A stretch of DNA of 64,000 bases from Gonatopus flavifemur (lineage: Eukaryota; Arthropoda; Insecta; Hymenoptera; Dryinidae), in contig JAFFJZ010000025.1 of NCBI GenBank assembly GCA_018340375.1, forward strand, positions 2,433,501 to 2,497,500, given 5' to 3'. The translations under genes were made by a program, and so were the position numbers. Shown here in pieces: positions 31,691-43,720 of the stretch. The notes under the pieces were generated by a model. That model ran no database searches and was not told the DNA's origin. It saw only the letters and a list, made by a program, of their open reading frames with translations. How positions within the stretch are numbered: the first letter of the stretch is position 1; the number at the start of each line of letters is the position of its first letter.

Positions 31691-32298
31691 TTCATGACGA
31701 GATTGCGGCAATTTTATATATACAGGGTGTCCCAAAAAACATTACCGGGGTTTTACAGATGAATTCTGCAGTCAAAATGCAATAATTTCTCGTTTGAAAA
31801 AATTTTTTTGGAGGCTTTGTTCTCGAAATATGAGCATTCTTAGATTTTTTCTTCAAATTTAAATCACTCAAAGGCATTGTGTGCTACATACTGGAGCTTT
31901 GCACCATTCGCTAAGTTGGAAAACGGTGGATCTCCGGAAAAAAATTGAACGAGACATGAGAAAATAATTGAATTTTTTTCCAGAGATCCGCCGTTTTCCA
32001 ACTTAGCGAATGGTGCAAAGCTCCACACTGTTAAAAATATTTATGAATTTAATACATGTTCATACAAAAAAGTGTATGGAATTTCAAGACTCGTGTTTTA
32101 ATTCTATTTCGTATGTACATATTCGGAAATCTATACAATGATTTGTAGATTTCAAACACATTTTGTGAAATTCAATCGGGTGTTTGCAAATTCACATGAA
32201 TGTTTTAATTTTGCAACATCCATGCACGGAACCAATGCGCAACTGGTTTGCGCAATACGTCTTGATGTATATCCATGTGTGAGATATTACGATGTAAA

Positions 32299-32535
32299 GG
32301 AGTAGACACATAAAATACGTAAACGTAAACGTGAAAAACGGAAGACTGCACAGATCTTATATACGGTCCCTGCGCAGCCTTACGTTTTTCACGTTTACGT
32401 TTACGTAGTTTATGTGTGTACTCCTTGAAGGTCTGTCTACATAACTAACGTAGACGTAAGAACGCATGCGCAGAAACTACATACGATCTACGCTGTCTTC
32501 CGTTCATTACGTCCACGTCTACGAAGCTTGTGTAG
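32299..32535. repeat. Subterminal ACGTnnACGT repeats and palindrome
   Basis: A palindrome (about 32299-32424) has arms built on GTAAACGTAAACGTGAAAAACG-type sequence. Immediately after come ACGTAGACGTAAG and ACGTCCACGTCTACG. Such clustered motifs within 500 bp of the end are typical of transposase binding sites in CACTA elements. Binding here is inference. Confidence 0.6.
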
Positions 32536-33413
32536 TTGTTTCTTAATACGGCTAACCAGTGGATGGTTGATGATCTTCATCATTTTACAAAGTGGACGAA
32601 CAAAATACAAGATCCAGAACATAATAAGTATTCAAATTGGATAGAAAATTTGATTTATTATATACAGGTGAGTATATTGTCATTTCATTCAATCAACAAC
32701 AGTTGTAAGGATAGCTTTCAATTTACATAACCTAACTTTTTCAAGTATCAGATTGAAGTAATCGCGTATAAAATTCACCAACATTCAATATGCAAATGCC
32801 ATCCAATGTCAGACCTGAACATGTTGCATTTAGAATTAATGAAAACGAGAGTCTCATTTTCAATATTGAAAACTATGAAGGAATGTGAATATAGTTACTA
32901 CGAAAACTGTTGACCTGAATTGCGTCTATATAACCTCCGAGTTCATATTGTAAAATATAACACCTCGAGTGTGATTGAATATTTTATGTTTTTTTTGCAC
33001 TTGAATACTCATGAAACATACTATATTATGTGAAGCTAAAGTGGAAAATAGCAGTGGTTGATACTGTACTTAAGCAACTGATCAACGGATTTTCTCATAC
33101 GTTTGCTCAACTTTACACTTTGATAAATTTCTTTTTTTATAATAAAAAACAAAAAATTATTGAATTAAATATGGAACTATAATGATTGTTGTTATATATA
33201 TTGATACTCATGAAACCTCCCCATTTCAAAGTTCCATAAATCATCGTGGATATTCGATTAGTGTTATTATGAACAGCGCAGTAATGAAAATTTCTTGTAT
33301 GCAAAATTAGATATGTTCATTTGTGATTATACTGACTAGTTCTGAGAATTAAGGGTTTCCAAATTACTGATTTCTGAAATTATGTTTCATCTATATCTTA
33401 TTTTGCAGAGAAT

Positions 33414-36146
33414 ATGTACATCTGTACATTTTGTTCAACAACACATACAAAATTTCAAGCTCATTTGGCTCATCACAAATACCATAAAAATTTGACGCAA
33501 AACTTCCACTGCGGTTTTCAAGGATGCAAGCATTTATTTCGCAAAGAATCTTCTTTGAGGATGCATTTAAAACGTACTCATAAAATCAATTTGAGAACTG
33601 AAAAGATTGTTCGCAATAAATGTCTTCCCAACGAACATTCTGTTTTCACATGTGAATTATCAATTTGTCAAAAGAAAATTGAAAATTATAATGTGTTCTT
33701 GAAACATCTCAAAGCACACATGAGAGAAGGATTAATTGTATCTTGCCCAGTGCAATATTGTCTGGCGAAGTATGAAAATGTGCAATCTTTCACAAGTCAC
33801 TTATCGAAACGTCATAAGGATATTTCTGTCGATGATATGAGAACCAAAACTATTTTGAACAACGATGCAGAGTCCTTCGAAATGATTACTAAAGTGAATG
33901 ATCTAACAACAGAGAATAATTCCTCAAACATTGACATCAATCCTTCTACCACTGTTGAGAATATTGAACTGAACGATGAATCTGAGCTTGATTTGAACGA
34001 TCTTTTTCTATGTCAGTTGGCAAATTTGTATCTCAAACTTGAAAGTCAATATCTTGTTCCTGTGAGCACTATAAATCACTTAGTATGTGAATTGAACAAT
34101 ATTCAGAATGAAAATAAGATCATAATGACTAACACGCTCAAAATCTCTCTTCTCAAGCACAATGTTCCATCAGAGTCGATACAATCTATAATCAATGATA
34201 CCGAAGTGAATACTTTTTTATCGAACAACCAATTATTAAGTACAAATTATAAAAGGAAACAATTCTATGCTGATCGATTATCCTACGTTCAACCAAGAGA
34301 GATATTCATTAACATGATTGACAACAAAAGTCAATGTTTTCATTACGTTCCTATAATTGATACCATCAAAGCACTATATAAAAATAAATCTTTACAATCA
34401 GACTTGGATAAGTGTTCAGGATATGAAGAAGATTATTATCAAGATTTTACCGATGGTGATGTATATTGTAATAACGAGTTTTTCCGAAACAATCCTGATT
34501 CACTGAAAATCATTTTGTATCAAGATAGTTTCGAAATTGTTAATCCTTTAGGAGCTGCTAAGAAGAAGCATAAGATTCTTGCCATTTATTTTACTTTGGG
34601 AAATTTACCAGATTATATTCGAACACATATTAACAGTATTCAATTAGTTGCTCTTTGTAAAGAGAATTTATTTGACCATGAAACAGTATATGGCCCATTG
34701 ATTGAAGATTTGAAAATAATAGACACTCAAGGAGTAGAAATTACATCAAACAAATTCAGGAAAGGAAGTGTGGTATTCATAGCAGGGGATGATCTCGGAA
34801 GTCATGCTCTAGGAGGATTTGTAGAAAATTTTTCCACTAGTCAATATTTTTGTAGATTTTGTACAATCACTCGTAATAATTTTGTAAACGGAATTACGGA
34901 AAATTATTTTGACGGTGCTAAATGTGATCAAACACAATCGTTCTCGTACAGTCGACAGCAGTGTGAATCCCGAACAGTGGATTCATATAAAACATCTATA
35001 GATAAGATTGGAAATGAAAGCCATTACGAGGGAGTTAAATTCGATTCGTGTTTTAATAAATTACACTATTATCATGTTTGCGCTCCTGGTCTTCCTCCTT
35101 GTGTAGGTCATGACTTGATGGAAGGTGTGATTGCATATGATTTGGCACTGTTTATTAATTATTTTGTGAAGCAACGGTGGTTTACTTATTCTCAGTTAAA
35201 CCAAAAAATGCAGCAATTTCCATACTCTGTTGAAGACTCAAAAGATAAGCCATCCAATTTTTCTCCTGGAAGTTTGAGAGTCAATGGTGGAGCTTGGCAA
35301 GTATGGACGTTTCTCAAATTTTTCCCTATGATAATGAGAAACGAAATTGCAGATTTTCAAGATTCCGTCTGGCACACTGTGCTTTTGTTATCTGAAATTG
35401 TTGAGATTGTATGTGCTCCATCAATTCATAAATCTCATTTATCTTATCTCCAAGTTATAATTGATGAATATATTGGTTTGAGGAAAAGATTATTCGAGAA
35501 TAATTTACGTCCAAAACATCATTATTTATCCCATTACCCTGAGTTGATTACGAAATTTGGACCTCTCATGAAAGTATGTACCCTGAGATTTGAAAGTAAG
35601 CATACTTATTTCAAGAGAGTTATACGATCTTCTCAAAATTTCATCAATGTTACTAAATCTTTAAGTGAAAAACATGAGTTATTTCAAAGTTTATTAAGAT
35701 TAGGAGCTGACTTGAGAAGCCCTGTTCAAGTTGAACAGGAAATCGCTTATGATCCCCATATGTATTCAAATGCCATAAAAACTGCTGTCATTAATGCAAA
35801 TTTAATTACCAATGGAATCGAAGAATGTTCTAAAGCTGTTATCAAAGGAACTATTTACAAAAAAGGAGACATTGTCATTGTCAAACAAGCTCATTATCAG
35901 AACGATGTGCAAATGGGTAGAATTTGCTTGATTTTATTCGTTGACGATCAGTTCGTTTATTTAGTTGTGCAAAAATTATCAACGAATTTCAACCCTACCA
36001 TTCGTTTTTACGAAATCAGTTCCACAAATTCATACGAATGTTTGAGGATAGAAGATTTATTGACTTTCGCTCCACATCATGAGTATACCATAGATACAAT
36101 TACTGGTATTAGGTTGAAATATGGATTGGTTGGAAAGAGTATTTGA
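33414..36146 (+). CDS. CACTA-like transposase with N-terminal zinc fingers, 910 aa
   Basis: The protein is intact and opens with an imperfect finger (CTFC) and three C2H2 zinc fingers (HCGFQGC, TCELSIC, SCPVQYC; residues about 1-140), probably for DNA recognition. The catalytic-type region follows: YQDSFEIVNPLG (D near 371), a GDDLGSHALGGF phrase (D near 459), the FCRFC pair, VGHDLMEG (D near 567) and KHHYLSHYPELITKFGPL near 700. The order and phrases match a transposase family widespread in insects, fish and Hydra. Assigning it to CACTA/EnSpm rests mainly on the ends and target duplication. A CAG acceptor stands right before the start (33405-33408). A possible 5' exon ends at a CAGGTGAGT donor near 32666, but its phase does not join cleanly, so it is probably untranslated. 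The accessory gene starts 127 bp downstream on the same strand. Confidence 0.8.
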   Translation: MYICTFCSTTHTKFQAHLAHHKYHKNLTQNFHCGFQGCKHLFRKESSLRMHLKRTHKINLRTEKIVRNKCLPNEHSVFTCELSICQKKIENYNVFLKHLKAHMREGLIVSCPVQYCLAKYENVQSFTSHLSKRHKDISVDDMRTKTILNNDAESFEMITKVNDLTTENNSSNIDINPSTTVENIELNDESELDLNDLFLCQLANLYLKLESQYLVPVSTINHLVCELNNIQNENKIIMTNTLKISLLKHNVPSESIQSIINDTEVNTFLSNNQLLSTNYKRKQFYADRLSYVQPREIFINMIDNKSQCFHYVPIIDTIKALYKNKSLQSDLDKCSGYEEDYYQDFTDGDVYCNNEFFRNNPDSLKIILYQDSFEIVNPLGAAKKKHKILAIYFTLGNLPDYIRTHINSIQLVALCKENLFDHETVYGPLIEDLKIIDTQGVEITSNKFRKGSVVFIAGDDLGSHALGGFVENFSTSQYFCRFCTITRNNFVNGITENYFDGAKCDQTQSFSYSRQQCESRTVDSYKTSIDKIGNESHYEGVKFDSCFNKLHYYHVCAPGLPPCVGHDLMEGVIAYDLALFINYFVKQRWFTYSQLNQKMQQFPYSVEDSKDKPSNFSPGSLRVNGGAWQVWTFLKFFPMIMRNEIADFQDSVWHTVLLLSEIVEIVCAPSIHKSHLSYLQVIIDEYIGLRKRLFENNLRPKHHYLSHYPELITKFGPLMKVCTLRFESKHTYFKRVIRSSQNFINVTKSLSEKHELFQSLLRLGADLRSPVQVEQEIAYDPHMYSNAIKTAVINANLITNGIEECSKAVIKGTIYKKGDIVIVKQAHYQNDVQMGRICLILFVDDQFVYLVVQKLSTNFNPTIRFYEISSTNSYECLRIEDLLTFAPHHEYTIDTITGIRLKYGLVGKSI

Positions 36147-36272
36147 CTGTTGGAACATTTGCTATGTTTCGTGTATGTTTCAAACATGTTTTTTATAACT
36201 CTCTAAATATATATATTCATGTGCAAATATGAAAGTATCATCCTTTTCATGAATTCCCTCATTCTTTGCAGC

Positions 36273-39200
36273 ATGCCGTTGTTTAAGGTTTGTGATGAGA
36301 CACGAGAACATAAAATTCTAATGAAAGCGGATAGTTTAGAAGAATTGATGTCAATTGCAGTAAAACACTTTCAATTTTCATCTGAACAGCGAGTGAAGGT
36401 CAGTTGATTCCAAATAAATTTCTAAAGCGACTTATATTTACACCCTCATACAATTATAATGAATAACAAGTTTTGGATCCTATCCACAGGAATTATAAGA
36501 TTCACCCCAAGTTTTTGTTGAAACTTTGATCATACATAATACGTATAAAAGTGTATAGAATTAATTTCTATTGAAAATATATTGGATAGATAATGTAAAA
36601 ACTTGAATCTTATAGCGTTCATCATGACTGTAGAAGGAATTAGGCAGTCTGTTATTTATTTTACTTCCATTCCCTTATTATCACGATGACTCAATTTTTT
36701 AAACAATTTGATATTAATCCATGTTGGAAATTATTTTATTCTAGATTGTGTTAGAAGAAGATGGTGCCGAGATATATGATTCCAATACGCTACAAACTAT
36801 GGCTGACTTTTCAAAAAGCCCAATTTGTTTAATGATTTTGAAGACTGATGTGTCATGGCAACCTGTTCAATTTAAAAATTCCCTGGAAGAACAGGTATCA
36901 AAACGCAACCAAACAACTGTGAAGGACGTAGATGTTGTACGAAATAATAATCAAAACATGGGAGTGATTTCCGAAAACAGAAATCCATCCCTAGATACTA
37001 CTCAATCTGGTGATGCTATGATTGAGGGTAAAGTATATTCCAGAAAGAACATGCAAAATTTGTATGATAATGTTTTTGGCGCATGAATAGTATGAACGTT
37101 TAGCTTCGAATAAAAATATTCCCCTTCAATGCAAGTGTAGGGTGTTAAAAGTTTGATCGAATATTGAATAAATACTTCGAGTCACGATAATTTTTCTTTT
37201 CTACATAAAAATATAATGAGGAATTACCACATTATAATACACCATATCAATAATGTAACAGATTCTTTGTCATACGAACGATATAACAGAGGCATCTAGG
37301 TGTCCGCTTCATACAAGGAGCACTTACATCTTACATCACATGACTTCTGATATACCTGTGACAGTGGAGGATCCAGAGGGGGGGCGATAGGGGTGATCGC
37401 CCCTCCCAAGCCAACTAAATCAGTTCCTGCAATGGGGAGTTTTTGAATTTCCACGATCTTAATTTTTTTTGAGTTAAAATAAGTACTTTTTGCCCCCCCC
37501 CCCCTAAGACAAATCCCTGGATCCGCCCCTGACCTGTGATGTAGAAATTACGTACAAAGTTATATGATGTAACTAGTACGTGTTTGAAGCGTGCATTTGG
37601 ATGCTGTCGTTATATCAGTGATATTTAACTCACGTAAGTTGTAAAGGGTGCTGTTACACTTACTGTTAGAGTTCTGTAGGGTACGTGAAGAGAATTTGAA
37701 TTCAATGAAAATGGAAAAAAACACGTATATCACTTAATATCCCAACTTACATTCAGAAAGTTGTGAGATGTCTTACTAAGACTTTTTTGAGATATCTTAG
37801 AAAATCCGAAAATATGTCTAATGGAACACGATTAGACCAATTTGAGAAAAATTTCTACTTGAAGACGGAATTGTTCTTAAAATGTGCTCATTATGTTTCA
37901 TAAGATATCTCACCGGATTTTATACCCAAGTAGCAACAGAAGTTTGAAGCATATACGAAATAGAAACATTCGTAGGATGTACAAACAAGATACGAAGAAC
38001 ATATAGTGAACGTTCATAGAATATTCGAATAAGACTGTTTCAAATATACTTAGTACGTTCGTAGTACATTCGAAATTTGCGATATTCATTCGATCGACGT
38101 TCGATAAGCGTACCATCGTATATTCGATCACATAGGTTCGAAGAATGTGCATAGCACCTATGAAACAGTCTCATTGAAATGTGCATAGAATATATGTCGA
38201 ATATTCGAAGAACGTTCATAGGATATTCTGGTGCTGCTTGGGTAAGACATCTTCAAGAAGTCTTGGGTAAGATATCTTCAAGAAGTCTTAGCAAGATATC
38301 TTCAGCATATCTGAATTTTAGGTGGAATACCATGATTTGTAAAAATAGAAATCTCAATATCATTTTGAAAGAATATTATTATAGTTTGCGCAAAATATCA
38401 TTTTTGCAATTGAATTTCACATCTAAATAAAATTCCTAATGAGAACAGCTTTTCAAAATGATATCAAATTGATATGATTTGGACTGAGGTCTCATAGGGT
38501 TGGCTTATTTGTGATAATTGATAGAGCATTGATGAAGTTTTAAATCTTTTCTCTTAACACAATTCTTCAGTAACCTAACTTGACCTGACTAATAATTTTC
38601 CATTCAATTTTCAAAACGACAATTCTTCTATTTTTTTGTAAATTTATTTTTATTATTATTATTTTTAATTACACTATATTTCTTTTGTCTCAAATTAGCT
38701 CTTTCGACTTCAAATAATTCTGATTGTACAGGAGCACTAGGACCATTGCCCTGGAATAAATTCCCCAATAGTTTAATTCAAGCCTGCGAACATGGAAATG
38801 TTCCGAATCCTCACGCGCGGCGAGTCATGGTTTCGATCATAGCTGAATACTTGATGAACGAATTAAAAGATCCTTCTCGAGGAATGGCAGGGAAAGTAGC
38901 TGCAAAAATACTCTCCAAATATCCGCTCTCATTTCAAGACAAAATTGGAAATTCTGTTATTGGGAACGGAATCCAGTCCCTACAGATTCAAATTTATAAT
39001 AGAATAAATTATTGTAAATGTCAGGAAAATTCATCAGCTAAAAAACACTCCATCGGAGATGAAGAAAATGACGATGGAAACACAAATGTACCACAGAAAA
39101 AAATTAAATATGATGAGTATGGCTGCGTGGCATATGAACCACCTTTACCTGTAAACGAATGTGCACAAACACAAGAGCAGAAAAAAAAATGGTTAATCGA

Positions 39201-40222
39201 ACAAAGTGCATCAACTGAACGAGACGTCTTGCAAATGAAGGCTTTCGTGACAGACACGTATCCCTCCCAAAGAATGATGATTAATCACCGAAGAGGGAAG
39301 ATAAATGCAATTTTCAATGAATGGCCGCTTTTGAAAGAGCCAGAATATTTCCTCATTCATGCGTGTATTCTCCTAGGAAAAGCAGTCCATGAAATATGGC
39401 AACAAAACTTGAAATTCAATGGCATTCACGAATACATGAAGCATTATTGCCATAGCTCATTGAAATCAAATAAAAATGCTCAATTTGTTCTTATGATGGG
39501 AGTATTAGAAGAGTCTAAGAATTGCGATCCAATTTACCTTTGACAACAGCGATATTCCCATTGTTCATTCATTATTTTAAGGAATCCACTAATTTTTTCT
39601 ACAAAATTGTTGATGTGAGTCATTTTTTTATAATAAATATGAACTCAAATATTCAATATGATGGACGAAACTTCTATTATGTATGTATTCATTCCAGAAT
39701 ACCATTTCTGATGAAGACTTGAAAACCACGTTGACAACAAATGCACCGATCTTAGTAATAAAGGGTAAAAATTTCGAGTATTTCTCAAATTTTTCATCAT
39801 ATAGTTCTCATAATGTTTTTTGAAATATATGCATGATATATGAATCTGAATTATATCATTTTAAGGACAATCTTTGTATGATGAAAATGCATCGTCAATT
39901 GTATTCGTCGAACAGGACATAATGATGAAACCCAGAAGTATGGTTGAAGGCTTTCTTGTGACTATTCTCACTTATTTTGTCTTTGGCTTAGAATATCCTC
40001 AAGAAATTAAGAAGAGTTTAGAATGTATGCAGAGGTAAAGAAATAATGTTCACTTCCAATTAATTTATTCATATTTTTCATTTCACCTCATTTCTGATTT
40101 TCAGACTCCTGTTGAACATCAATCCCCCAAAAGGAAGTAAGAAGAATAGTGGGAAAACCCAATCACGCTTTTACAGCGCAGTTGTTAAATCATTTTGCGA
40201 TAAAATACAAGTATATTTCTAA
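36273..40222 (+). CDS. Accessory gene: CIDE-N domain plus transposon-linked protein, six exons
   Basis: Predicted exons are 36273-36398, 36745-37027, 38732-39614, 39698-39764, 39866-40034 and 40105-40222. All five junctions have GT-AG borders and keep phase, giving about 548 residues. Residues 1 to about 75 read as a CIDE-N domain: LFKVCDETREHKI, the LEELM helix, IVLEEDGAEIYD and a closing ICLMILK. CIDE-N domains bind each other in the DFF40/DFF45 apoptotic nuclease system. From exon 3 (LPWNKFPNSLIQACE) the protein resembles one I recall beside this type of transposase in other animals, where it usually carries a different N-terminal module (SAM). One base seems missing near 39536-39541, giving an early stop after CDPIYL; later exons stay open in the other frame. 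The role could be transposase partner or host-pathway mimic; neither is shown. Confidence 0.72.
37362..37531. mobile_element. hAT-type short element in the accessory gene intron
   Basis: The 170-bp element has ends CAGTGGAGGATCCAG and CTGGATCCGCCCCTG and is flanked by a perfect 8-bp duplication, ACCTGTGA (37354-37361 and 37532-37539). The 8-bp duplication and CAG-type ends are hallmarks of hAT elements. It contains a G7 run and a C13 run but no coding content. Confidence 0.9.
37925..38242. mobile_element. CCCAAGTAGCA-ended short element, TA duplication
   Basis: The ends are CCCAAGTAGCAACAGAA and the inverse of CCCAAGCAGCACCAGAA, flanked by TA on both sides. The interior is a degenerate palindrome of ACGTTCGTA-like motifs. 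A second copy is at 50570-50808. It lies in the same intron as the hAT element. Confidence 0.8.
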
Positions 40223-40945
40223 ATCTGCGTACAATACAGTCATCGTTTCTTTTCATATATATTTATTTTTTTATCTTTTGAAATAATATTTCTATTAGAA
40301 TCACTAGTATTTGTAGGGTTATTCATCCATCATGAACAATCGAAATTTTATCGACGATGTGAAATTATATTTTTCTTTCGATGTGTATCTATTACGTTGA
40401 GCATGTGTCTATTGATTTTGAATAATTTTTATCCCAACTTCTATCGAAGAGTTTTTAAATATTATTTGTTCTTGAAAGTTTAATTTTCTTCCCGTTGAAA
40501 AATGCATTGACTGAAATAATTCAGTATTCAGTGTTCTATGCAACAAATTCCTCGGAACTAATAAATAATATTACATATCTATAATTGGTTTATTGATTAT
40601 TTTGAGTATAATTTCTCGTAAAAATTATATCATTTTTATTGATTTCATTTCTAATTTATTTCCACAGACTTACACACACTGATGAAAATATTACAAAATC
40701 CTCTATCAAAAATGATGTCAAAATTCACACTCAGTTGTGATATAAAATTTTGTATCAAAAATGGTTCAGATATTGACAGAAATGGCCACTCTATTGCAAA
40801 AATGCAGGTAAGAATTCATATAGGAATCCAGATGTATTCCTCTGTTTTCATATAAAAATTCCGGATGGTGTCCTATGGGTTTGCTTGAATCCTATGGTTT
40901 CCTACGCAAATTCCTACCTCGTTCCTCAGATGGAAAATTTTTATC

Positions 40946-41173
40946 ATACACGAAGAAATTTGACACAGATAGTCAATAGTGTGCACATTGATGGCCAATG
41001 TGTGACAAAAATATTTTTTTTTCGCATTAATTCTCAATGCGCTGACATAAGTGTTCAATTTTTATACATCAGTCATCGGTGTATTCACTCTGAAGATCGA
41101 TATGAAAAATATGTTTCACATTGACCATCAATGTGCGGGTTTTAGTTATCTATCTGACAATATCTCCGTGTAG
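40946..41173. mobile_element. Palindromic element with TACACGAAGAAATTTGACA end
   Basis: The left TACACGAAGAAATTTGACA and following AGATAG are mirrored by CTATCTGACAATATCTCCGTGTA at the right. The middle has ACATTGATGGCCAATGTG and its inverted counterpart. Nested in the CACTG element. Confidence 0.55.
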
Positions 41174-41284
41174 TTCCTCAGCAGTTTCAACTGGATTTCA
41201 AAGCTTAATTCCTATGGAGACTTTTGGATGTGTACCTGGATTCCTACCTGAATTTTGTGCAATAAGACACATGTGTCAACATAA

Positions 41285-41680
41285 AAGTTCGTAACTCGTA
41301 CAGCACAACCACGAATCCTCCACCTAGGACTTCGGTGGTACAAAAGTGGAGAAATGGGAGCCGTGGGAATAGGGGAGAATTAAGAGAAAATCCCCGTTGA
41401 AGCAACGGAAAGGCGATGGAGAAATGTCCGCCCTCTTTATTTTCAATCAAACTCATAATAGTGAAGATACATAACCAAATCTTAGTATATTAATCCCCCA
41501 ATATGAGTTGTATTGAAAATAAAGAGGGTGGACATTTCTACGTTGCCTCAACGGAGACTCTCCCCTATTTCTCTCTTTTTTTCACGGCTCCCATTTCTCC
41601 ACCTCTGTACCACCGAAGTCCTAGGTGGAGGATCGGTGGTTGTACTATACGGGAATATTTACACATAATAAAATTTGTAT
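41285..41680. repeat. Inverted repeat with CACCTAGGACTTCGGTGG arms
   Basis: The left arm phrases CCTCCACCTAGGACTTCGGT and CCCTCTTTATTTTCAAT recur inverted on the right near 41520-41640. No coding content. Confidence 0.7.
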
Positions 41681-41790
41681 CCGGGTTATGAAGTTTTGTA
41701 ATGATCTTTCTAACAGTGCAGAAAGCGGACCGTTTCTGAAATCATGACATTCCTACTAAATCCGCAGAATGAGTGAAAATTTCATGGTTA

Positions 41791-42133
41791 TTGTTAGACA
41801 GTGTACTAAAAATGCGCATTTGATCATGTGAAGTGTTGCACACTATCTAAATCTGGAAGTAAAGAATCGCATATTTCACTGCACTAAATCTTGGAAGTGA
41901 GCCTGTGAGCTTCAAGTGAGAAAAATTCACCCTATAATTGAAGTGGGGTTGTGAATATCAAACCTCACCTTAAACCTCAGACTATTACTATACAAACATG
42001 GAAATTGTACTCAAAAACTTGATAAGCTCACTTCTGGCTAGCTAAATAATGAAATGTGACTATGAAAATTTTGGAGAGCATGCGCATTAAACTTTGTCTG
42101 TAAATTACCTGTTTTTTTCACACTGTCTAACAA
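41791..42133. mobile_element. Palindromic element with TTGTTAGACAGTG ends
   Basis: The ends TTGTTAGACAGTG and CACTGTCTAACAA are perfect inverses, and the inner TGCGCAT is mirrored as well. 343 bp, non-coding. Confidence 0.7.
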
Positions 42134-42260
42134 AACAACAGAGATATTTTCATTCGACCTACTGATTTGATAGCTACGGAGTAATTTTTTTATCATTATT
42201 TTCCTCCGTGTATTGTTGATCGAAATAATATGAGCAATGGCCAAAAAATAATTTTGATTA

Positions 42261-42520
42261 TACGTTGAGAAAAAAAATTGTAAAATTTACATCTTGTCCA
42301 GTAAATATATGGAGAATGCAAAATATAGTTCCAGCTATCATAATTTTGATTGATTGAAAGATATACATCACCTGTAATATATTCTGCATCAGCTGTGGGG
42401 TATATCTTACATACACTGTTGTAATATCAACCAAAATTTTGATAGGTCGAATTACATGTTGAACTGCCCATATATTTACTCAACAAAATGTAAATTTTAT
42501 ACCTTGTTTTTCTCAGTGTA
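42261..42520. mobile_element. Palindromic element, TACRYTGAGAAAAA ends
   Basis: Left TACGTTGAGAAAAA and right TTTTTCTCAGTGTA are near inverses. The TAAAATTTACAT arm segment and the GGCAGTTCAACA/AGTAAATATATGG sections also mirror in part. Confidence 0.55.
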
Positions 42521-42644
42521 TCCACAAAGATTTCCGGATTCCGTCATATGGATTCTTTGACATTTTAAAGAGGATTTTGGATGATTTCCTTGCGGAATTA
42601 ATGTTAGGGATTGAAAGAATTCATGAACATAAATGCATTAATTT

Positions 42645-42843
42645 TCAAAATTTTGTGTAATAATTCCTCAACAACTGATCATGCAGTTTCATGAAATTAA
42701 TATATCGAGTGTTGAAAATTTATGCAAAAATGTGTATGAATAATCAAAATTCCGTGTAATAATTTCTCAACAACTGATCATGAAGTTTCATGAAATTAAT
42801 GTATCGAGCGTTGAAAATTTATGCATAAATGTACATTAATTTT
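42645..42843 (+). repeat. Tandem dimer, 99-bp unit, right subterminal region
   Basis: CTCAACAACTGATCATG recurs 99 bp later within otherwise closely similar sequence. It lies 140-340 bp from the right transposon end and could be part of its subterminal repeat zone. Confidence 0.7.
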
Positions 42844-43720
42844 CAAAATATCGTACATGAATCGTGATAATCTAATGTATCATCTTCAATACATGAAAAT
42901 ATTGGAAACTTATAGCATTTTTTTGTTTGTTAATTGCTTCCAAACTTTATGTACTAAATTTCATGCAGATTTTTTTAACAGTGCAGTGTATAGCACACAA
43001 TGCCTTTGACTGATTTAGATTTGAAGAAAAAATCTTCAAATGGTCATATCTCGAGAACGAAGCCTCAAAAATAATGTTTTCCAACGAGAAATTCTTGCGT
43101 TTCGGCTGCAGAATCCACCTGTGAAATCCCGGTAATGTTTTCTGGGACACCCTGTATATAAACAAAACTACGTTCAATCGATCTGACCACAATATTAATT
43201 GATTCAACCTCGCTACAAATTCTGTCTCATTCAAATTCCGCCAATATTGTAAATTCATCACGTTTTTCTCAGTGTGTGCATCTTTTATTGGCCATGGACC
43301 TCTAAAAAGACGGGCAGAAGTTTGTTATTTATTTATTTTTTTTTTTTGAAACTGAGTGATAAATAGTAATGCCTAATATGCAATGATGAGGATATTGCAG
43401 ATTTTAGACTTTGAATGAAAAATTAAAAGTCAAAAGTAATATCTAAAAATGGAAGAAAACAAGTTATGAAGATTATTGACATTTGTAAGGTATTATATTT
43501 ATAATTTTTTGCATAATTTTCAAGAATATTTTCCACATTCAATCAAATATTCAAAGTTTGATTTTGTCAACGCGTTTGTTGCATCAATGCATATTAAAAA
43601 TCTTGATCTATTGCTCAGTGTTTGGGAAAGTACGTACCGAAATTTCGCCCATTTTCTAGAGCTCCATGAGCCTCAATATCCCCCTATATCATAAGACAAC
43701 TGTTCCTTCCACTTTTGCAG

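Follow-up and report, generated by a model that had tools for sequence, protein, structure and literature searches.

A CIDE-N domain at the start of the helper protein of a CMC-like transposon family in Gonatopus flavifemur

Does a DNA transposon encode a protein that begins with a CIDE-N domain, the interaction domain of apoptosis nucleases, and what would such a domain do there? The locus that raises this question lies in the dryinid hymenopteran Gonatopus flavifemur, in a 64,000-nt stretch (contig JAFFJZ010000025.1 of assembly GCA_018340375.1, positions 2,433,501 to 2,497,500 of the forward strand), which we call the window. The initial annotation had read the first two exons of a gene in the window as a CIDE-N domain heading a transposon accessory protein, and had proposed that a mobile element captured it. 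No description of a CIDE-N domain in a transposon protein was found in the open-access journal literature searched. CIDE-N is a known self-assembly domain, and a helper that carries it would open this class of proteins to direct mechanistic tests.

The gene was confirmed to be part of a transposon. Inverted CACTG ends bound an 11-kb element in the window (Table 1), and both the transposase ORF and the helper gene lie inside this unit on one strand, with the transposase upstream. A 99% identical sister copy on another contig (C57) has both ends as in the window copy, set in unrelated flanks. Terminal inverted repeats of the CACTA/CACTG type are present in the window element, in its sister copy and in three full copies of a related element (L025, L026 and L036), and the 2-bp duplications read CA around the window element and TA around the sister copy and all three full copies. 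Among six aligned transposase members scanned with Pfam at E-values up to 1, three matched Transposase_21 (best 3.7e-4), and the window transposase gave no match to this family.

Table 1. Features of the window element (positions refer to the 64,000-nt window)
Feature	Position	Strand	Remarks
Whole transposon, 10,958 bp, CMC (CACTA/EnSpm)-like	32026..42983	+	CACTGTTAAAAA at both ends
Left terminal inverted repeat, CACTGTTAAAAA	32026..32037	+	identical in L060
Right terminal inverted repeat	42972..42983	-	identical in L061
Candidate 2-bp target site duplication, CA	32024..32025 (left), 42984..42985 (right)	.	
Transposase ORF, 910 aa	33414..36146	+	N-terminal C2H2-like fingers, putative tnp2-like core
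Helper exon 1, first half of CIDE-N	36273..36398	+	ends AAG, then GTCAGT; phase 0
Helper exon 2, second half of CIDE-N (to about 36861) and linker start	36745..37027	+	
Helper exon 3, conserved partner domain	38699..39614	+	frame lost near 39500-39520 in the window copy
Helper exon 4	39698..39764	+	predicted by eye (splice sites, phase)
Helper exon 5	39866..40034	+	predicted by eye (splice sites, phase)
Helper exon 6 including stop (at 40222)	40105..40222	+	predicted by eye (splice sites, phase)

Several repeats accompany the window element. Its ends hold 10 repeated 9-mers against a shuffle maximum of 4, part of them from one local hairpin; the ends of L025 and L026 hold 2 and 3, which do not exceed the respective shuffle maxima of 5 and 6. 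The 10-mer ACGTAAACGT occurs four times in the end regions of the element, and nested inverted repeats made of it occupy 32297-32533, near the left end. Downstream of the helper gene, an inverted repeat with 111-nt arms (84%) and 133 nt between them (41297-41651) is perhaps a nested small element. The transposon is itself nested in another repeat (31712-32025 and 42984-43165) with 182-nt inverted arms (86%), a TATACAGGGTGTCCCA-like end and a 58-nt hairpin on its left side.

Relatives of the helper gene are numerous in the same genome. Searching the whole genome (636 Mb) with the Pfam CIDE-N profile PF02017 returned at least 24 matches, from which the window copy is absent, its domain being divided between exons. 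Inspection of the reading frames assigned 19 matches to helper genes and five to pieces of what are apparently three host genes (L001, L005, L006, L016 and L022). The 19 helper loci carry the CIDE-N domain without an intron, and in 11 of them the domain and the partner domain share a single ORF. A transposase relative lies upstream on the same strand at every one of these 19 loci (seen for L017 in the extended stretch L032 and for L023 in L034) and at none of the host CIDE-N loci. L025, L026 and L036, the longer stretches of three of the 19, are full elements that are 99.4% identical over 7.2 kb, with alignment limits at most 4 nt from the termini; the 902-aa transposase ORF is open in all three, and the helper ORF in two.

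The window copy belongs to a second, divergent group, in which an intron cuts the CIDE-N domain at one conserved site. With exon 3 as the query, 66 matches were found in the genome, and we inspected the upstream DNA of 19 such loci besides the window: seven high-ranking ones (L041-L047) and 12 with an open frame (L048-L059). A profile of the intron-type CIDE-N exons, built from the window copy and L042-L046, detected at least one CIDE-N exon at an E-value of 1e-3 or better upstream of exon 3 at 16 of the 19 loci, six of which are profile members or, as L041, identical to one. Among L048-L059 alone the count was 10 of 12, including the near copies L049/L051/L052 and L056/L057/L058. The exon was weak in L054 (E 0.04), and this profile found none upstream in L053 and L047. 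Against the antisense strands of L048-L059 and both strands of 49 kb from elsewhere in the window, the profile had a single match, at E 7.8. The phase-0 site at which the window copy interrupts the domain is shared by the sister copy and by L042-L046, and a transposase relative lies upstream on the same strand in five of seven intron-type loci tested; for L041 and L047, the sequence inspected starts too near the gene to contain it. The CIDE-N domain lies inside the mobile unit and travels with it; it is found in most of the relatives sampled from this genome and kept between subfamilies.

The exon structure of the window copy is consistent with a single protein. Borders are of the GT-AG type and phases agree throughout exons 1-3: TTCTAG precedes exon 2, which ends before GTAAAG in phase 1, and exon 3 follows AATTAG and completes in frame the codon it shares with exon 2. 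Splicing of the three exons into one protein is predicted because of these agreeing phases, because the splice site recurs in the sister copy and in five more distant copies, and because related elements encode the CIDE-N and partner domains in one unspliced ORF. The predicted product consists of the CIDE-N domain, a linker and the conserved partner domain. Neither copy is intact. In the window, exon 3 runs out of frame towards its 3′ end, and the reading frame returns further downstream; the sister copy stays in frame there, but two stop codons interrupt its exon 3 at other places.

By profile comparison, the N-terminal segment of this protein is a CIDE-N domain. On the joined exons, PF02017 matched with an E-value of 3.8e-13 and 49.7 bits (Pfam cut-off 23.5), covering residues 4-81 and profile positions 4-76 of 76, and the four motifs named in the initial annotation (FKVCDETREHK, LEELM, VLEEDGAEIYD and ICLMILK) are all there, in order. 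CIDE-N was also the top Pfam family in all ten further copies, nine of them above the cut-off (L045 reached 21.9 of the 23.5 bits), and in the four single-ORF copies scanned. From the single window sequence, the closest solved structure was human CIDE-B (1d4b, E 3.4e-4). When a profile built from 18 of the transposon domains was searched against the PDB at E-values up to 0.1, the first 13 of 19 sequences returned were all CIDE-N proteins (best 3.7e-13). The transposon domain resembles those of DFF40/CAD, DFF45/ICAD, DREP1-4 and CIDE-A/B/C in its full-length profile match, motif order and acidic second half. It differs from the cellular proteins in being fused to a transposon helper, in forming a separate group in the tree described below and in its companions: no DFF-C domain or nuclease was matched by Pfam in the window pieces or in the nine longer copies scanned.

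The partner domain may be akin to that of a SAMD3-like transposon partner of fish; no fish sequence was among the protein-search returns. These returns included P0002 and P0003, in which the second CIDE-N half is mostly present (2.5e-7 and 9.4e-7) together with the partner domain, and P0001, with the partner domain only; they likely point to a second species. A weak structural model of the partner domain (mean pLDDT 56.1) matched no solved structure.

Host genes were compared as a possible source of the domain. The genome apparently contains three intron-bearing CIDE-N genes (L037, L038, L039 and L040), which we take to resemble DREP2, ICAD and CAD. Their CIDE-N introns lie after KLK in the CAD-like gene, inside VLEQDG in the ICAD-like gene and before GKEKLG in the DREP2-like gene, and the intron site of the transposon domain equals none of the three. 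In an unrooted tree (27 rows, 81 columns, automatic alignment, near copies omitted, one row with X), 21 transposon domains fell on one side and six cellular ones, including a long CAD-like branch, on the other (94/96), and each of the two transposon groups was undivided (87/84 and 87/93). In a similar alignment the two transposon groups are offset by a gap, several columns wide, for which the helix lengths give no reason, so that the split between them may be overdrawn. As the tree is short, it fits one old origin of the transposon CIDE-N without proving it, and gives no direction.

Selection on the domain was estimated between subfamilies, where dN/dS was 0.17-0.29 in eight of 12 pairs and 0.59 in one, with dS high throughout and saturated in the remaining three. 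Four close pairs were uninformative on selection; one of them, L010/L020, differs by two synonymous and eight non-synonymous changes. Overall, CIDE-N seems to have been a fixed component of the element for a long time. One recent capture from a host CIDE-N gene of this insect is disfavoured: the domain occurs in two deeply divergent groups, its intron site matches that of none of the three host genes examined, and its tree group lies apart from the cellular domains sampled. An apoptosis-nuclease interaction domain would then have persisted for long in a second setting, that of transposons. The widest reading, which we consider quite unlikely as a whole, makes CIDE-N an ancient, integral part of a CMC lineage of animals, forming a filament that brings transposon ends together and is able to mix with host DFF proteins; the transposon and cellular families would then be sister lineages, and the apoptotic domain might even derive from the transposon, a direction that the unrooted tree permits.

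What the domain does can be approached through known elements of this class. In maize Spm, both TNPA and TNPD are essential, and the animal CACTA element SmTRC1 encodes helper-like proteins without detectable relatives, according to the parts of PMC1636069 cited here. The window element shares with CACTA/En-Spm and animal TRC elements the CACTG-type termini and 2-bp duplication, as well as a probably tnp2-like transposase accompanied by a second, non-catalytic protein. Animal TRC termini, as given in those parts, begin with CCC, whereas the window element begins with CACTG, and their text on TNPA and SmTRC-PrA makes no mention of a CIDE-N domain, with which the helper described here starts.

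The charge pattern of the domain bears on its role. In CIDE filaments, neighbouring domains join head to tail by faces of opposite charge (PMC8647176). Across the 21 transposon domains, the second half of CIDE-N is always net negative and the first half net positive in 15, being neutral or negative in six; such a pattern would suit the two oppositely charged filament faces. In the window copy, the first half has a net charge of 0, and the position equivalent to DREP3 Lys132, placed by hand via the CIDE-B alignment, is not basic, while the preceding residue is.

From this charge pattern and the two essential Spm proteins, we propose, with moderate confidence at best, that the second gene of this CMC (CACTA/EnSpm)-type transposon encodes a TNPA-like helper whose CIDE-N domain serves self-assembly. 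Like maize TNPA, the helper would bind the element and gather its ends and the transposase. The CIDE-N domain would let the helper self-assemble, by head-to-tail contacts like those in DREP CIDE filaments, and so cluster it on the element ends. Speaking against this model, TNPA-like arrays of subterminal repeats are not clear at the ends of L025 and L026. DNA binding by the partner domain is a guess, because the model of that domain is weak and no solved structure matched it.

Self-assembly is one of several conceivable uses of the domain. By analogy with the CIDE domain of DREP4, which binds histones H1, H2a and H2b according to PMC8891305, CIDE-N could instead tether the transposition complex to chromatin. 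We regard this as unlikely, since in the same work most histones failed to co-elute with the DREP1 CIDE domain, which argues against a general property.

It is rather unlikely, in our assessment, that the domain acts against the host by binding CAD, ICAD or DREP proteins and blocking or redirecting DNA fragmentation at transposition breaks. The three host CIDE-N genes mean that possible partners are present in the genome, and contact with DFF was called conceivable for the CIDE_N proteins of granuloviruses in the portion of PMC5245865 cited. However, the transposon domain is fused to the protein adjoining the transposase at all loci where this is visible, is common to both deep groups of the element and lies far from the host domains in the tree. 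The viral CIDE_N proteins are mostly of 91-111 aa. The granulovirus case (MyunGV#8 ORF38) shares with the element the presence of CIDE-N on selfish DNA; there, it belongs mostly to small viral proteins, and that portion of PMC5245865 mentions no transposase link.

A further reading takes the segment as merely ubiquitin-like, of the KHA or PB1 kind, with its CIDE-N likeness due to convergence. KHA, a potassium-channel dimerisation domain, was the second-best Pfam family on the window copy (PF11834, E 2.2e-7) and scored over its cut-off. Its match comprises residues 11-54 (36303-36398 and 36745-36780). The last six of the 19 PDB matches were plant potassium channels (E 0.037-0.078), the matched part of which is presumably their KHA domain. 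Nevertheless, CIDE-N scores above KHA in every copy with a KHA match, and CIDE-N chains precede the channels in the PDB list by about two orders of magnitude in E-value, which leaves convergence very improbable. The KHA score of the window copy hints at an old relation between the KHA and CIDE-N folds.

Finally, an artefact joining a host gene to a transposon, by chance read-through or mis-assembly, which the broken state of the window and sister copies might suggest, is refuted to near certainty by the other copies, with their single-ORF fusions at 11 of 19 loci, three near-identical full copies and conserved intron site.

CIDE-N helpers of this kind may not be confined to this genome. Two Hydra genomes are rich in CIDE-N, with counts of 10 and 7 where five other cnidarians have 1-3, and CMC is among their large transposon classes (PMC7642931, in the sections cited). 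There, the authors place CIDE-N among DNA-binding motifs and draw no tie to a transposon protein. By analogy with the family described here, the Hydra surplus may represent a related transposon family, and some of the CIDE-N genes counted in genome papers may belong to transposons.
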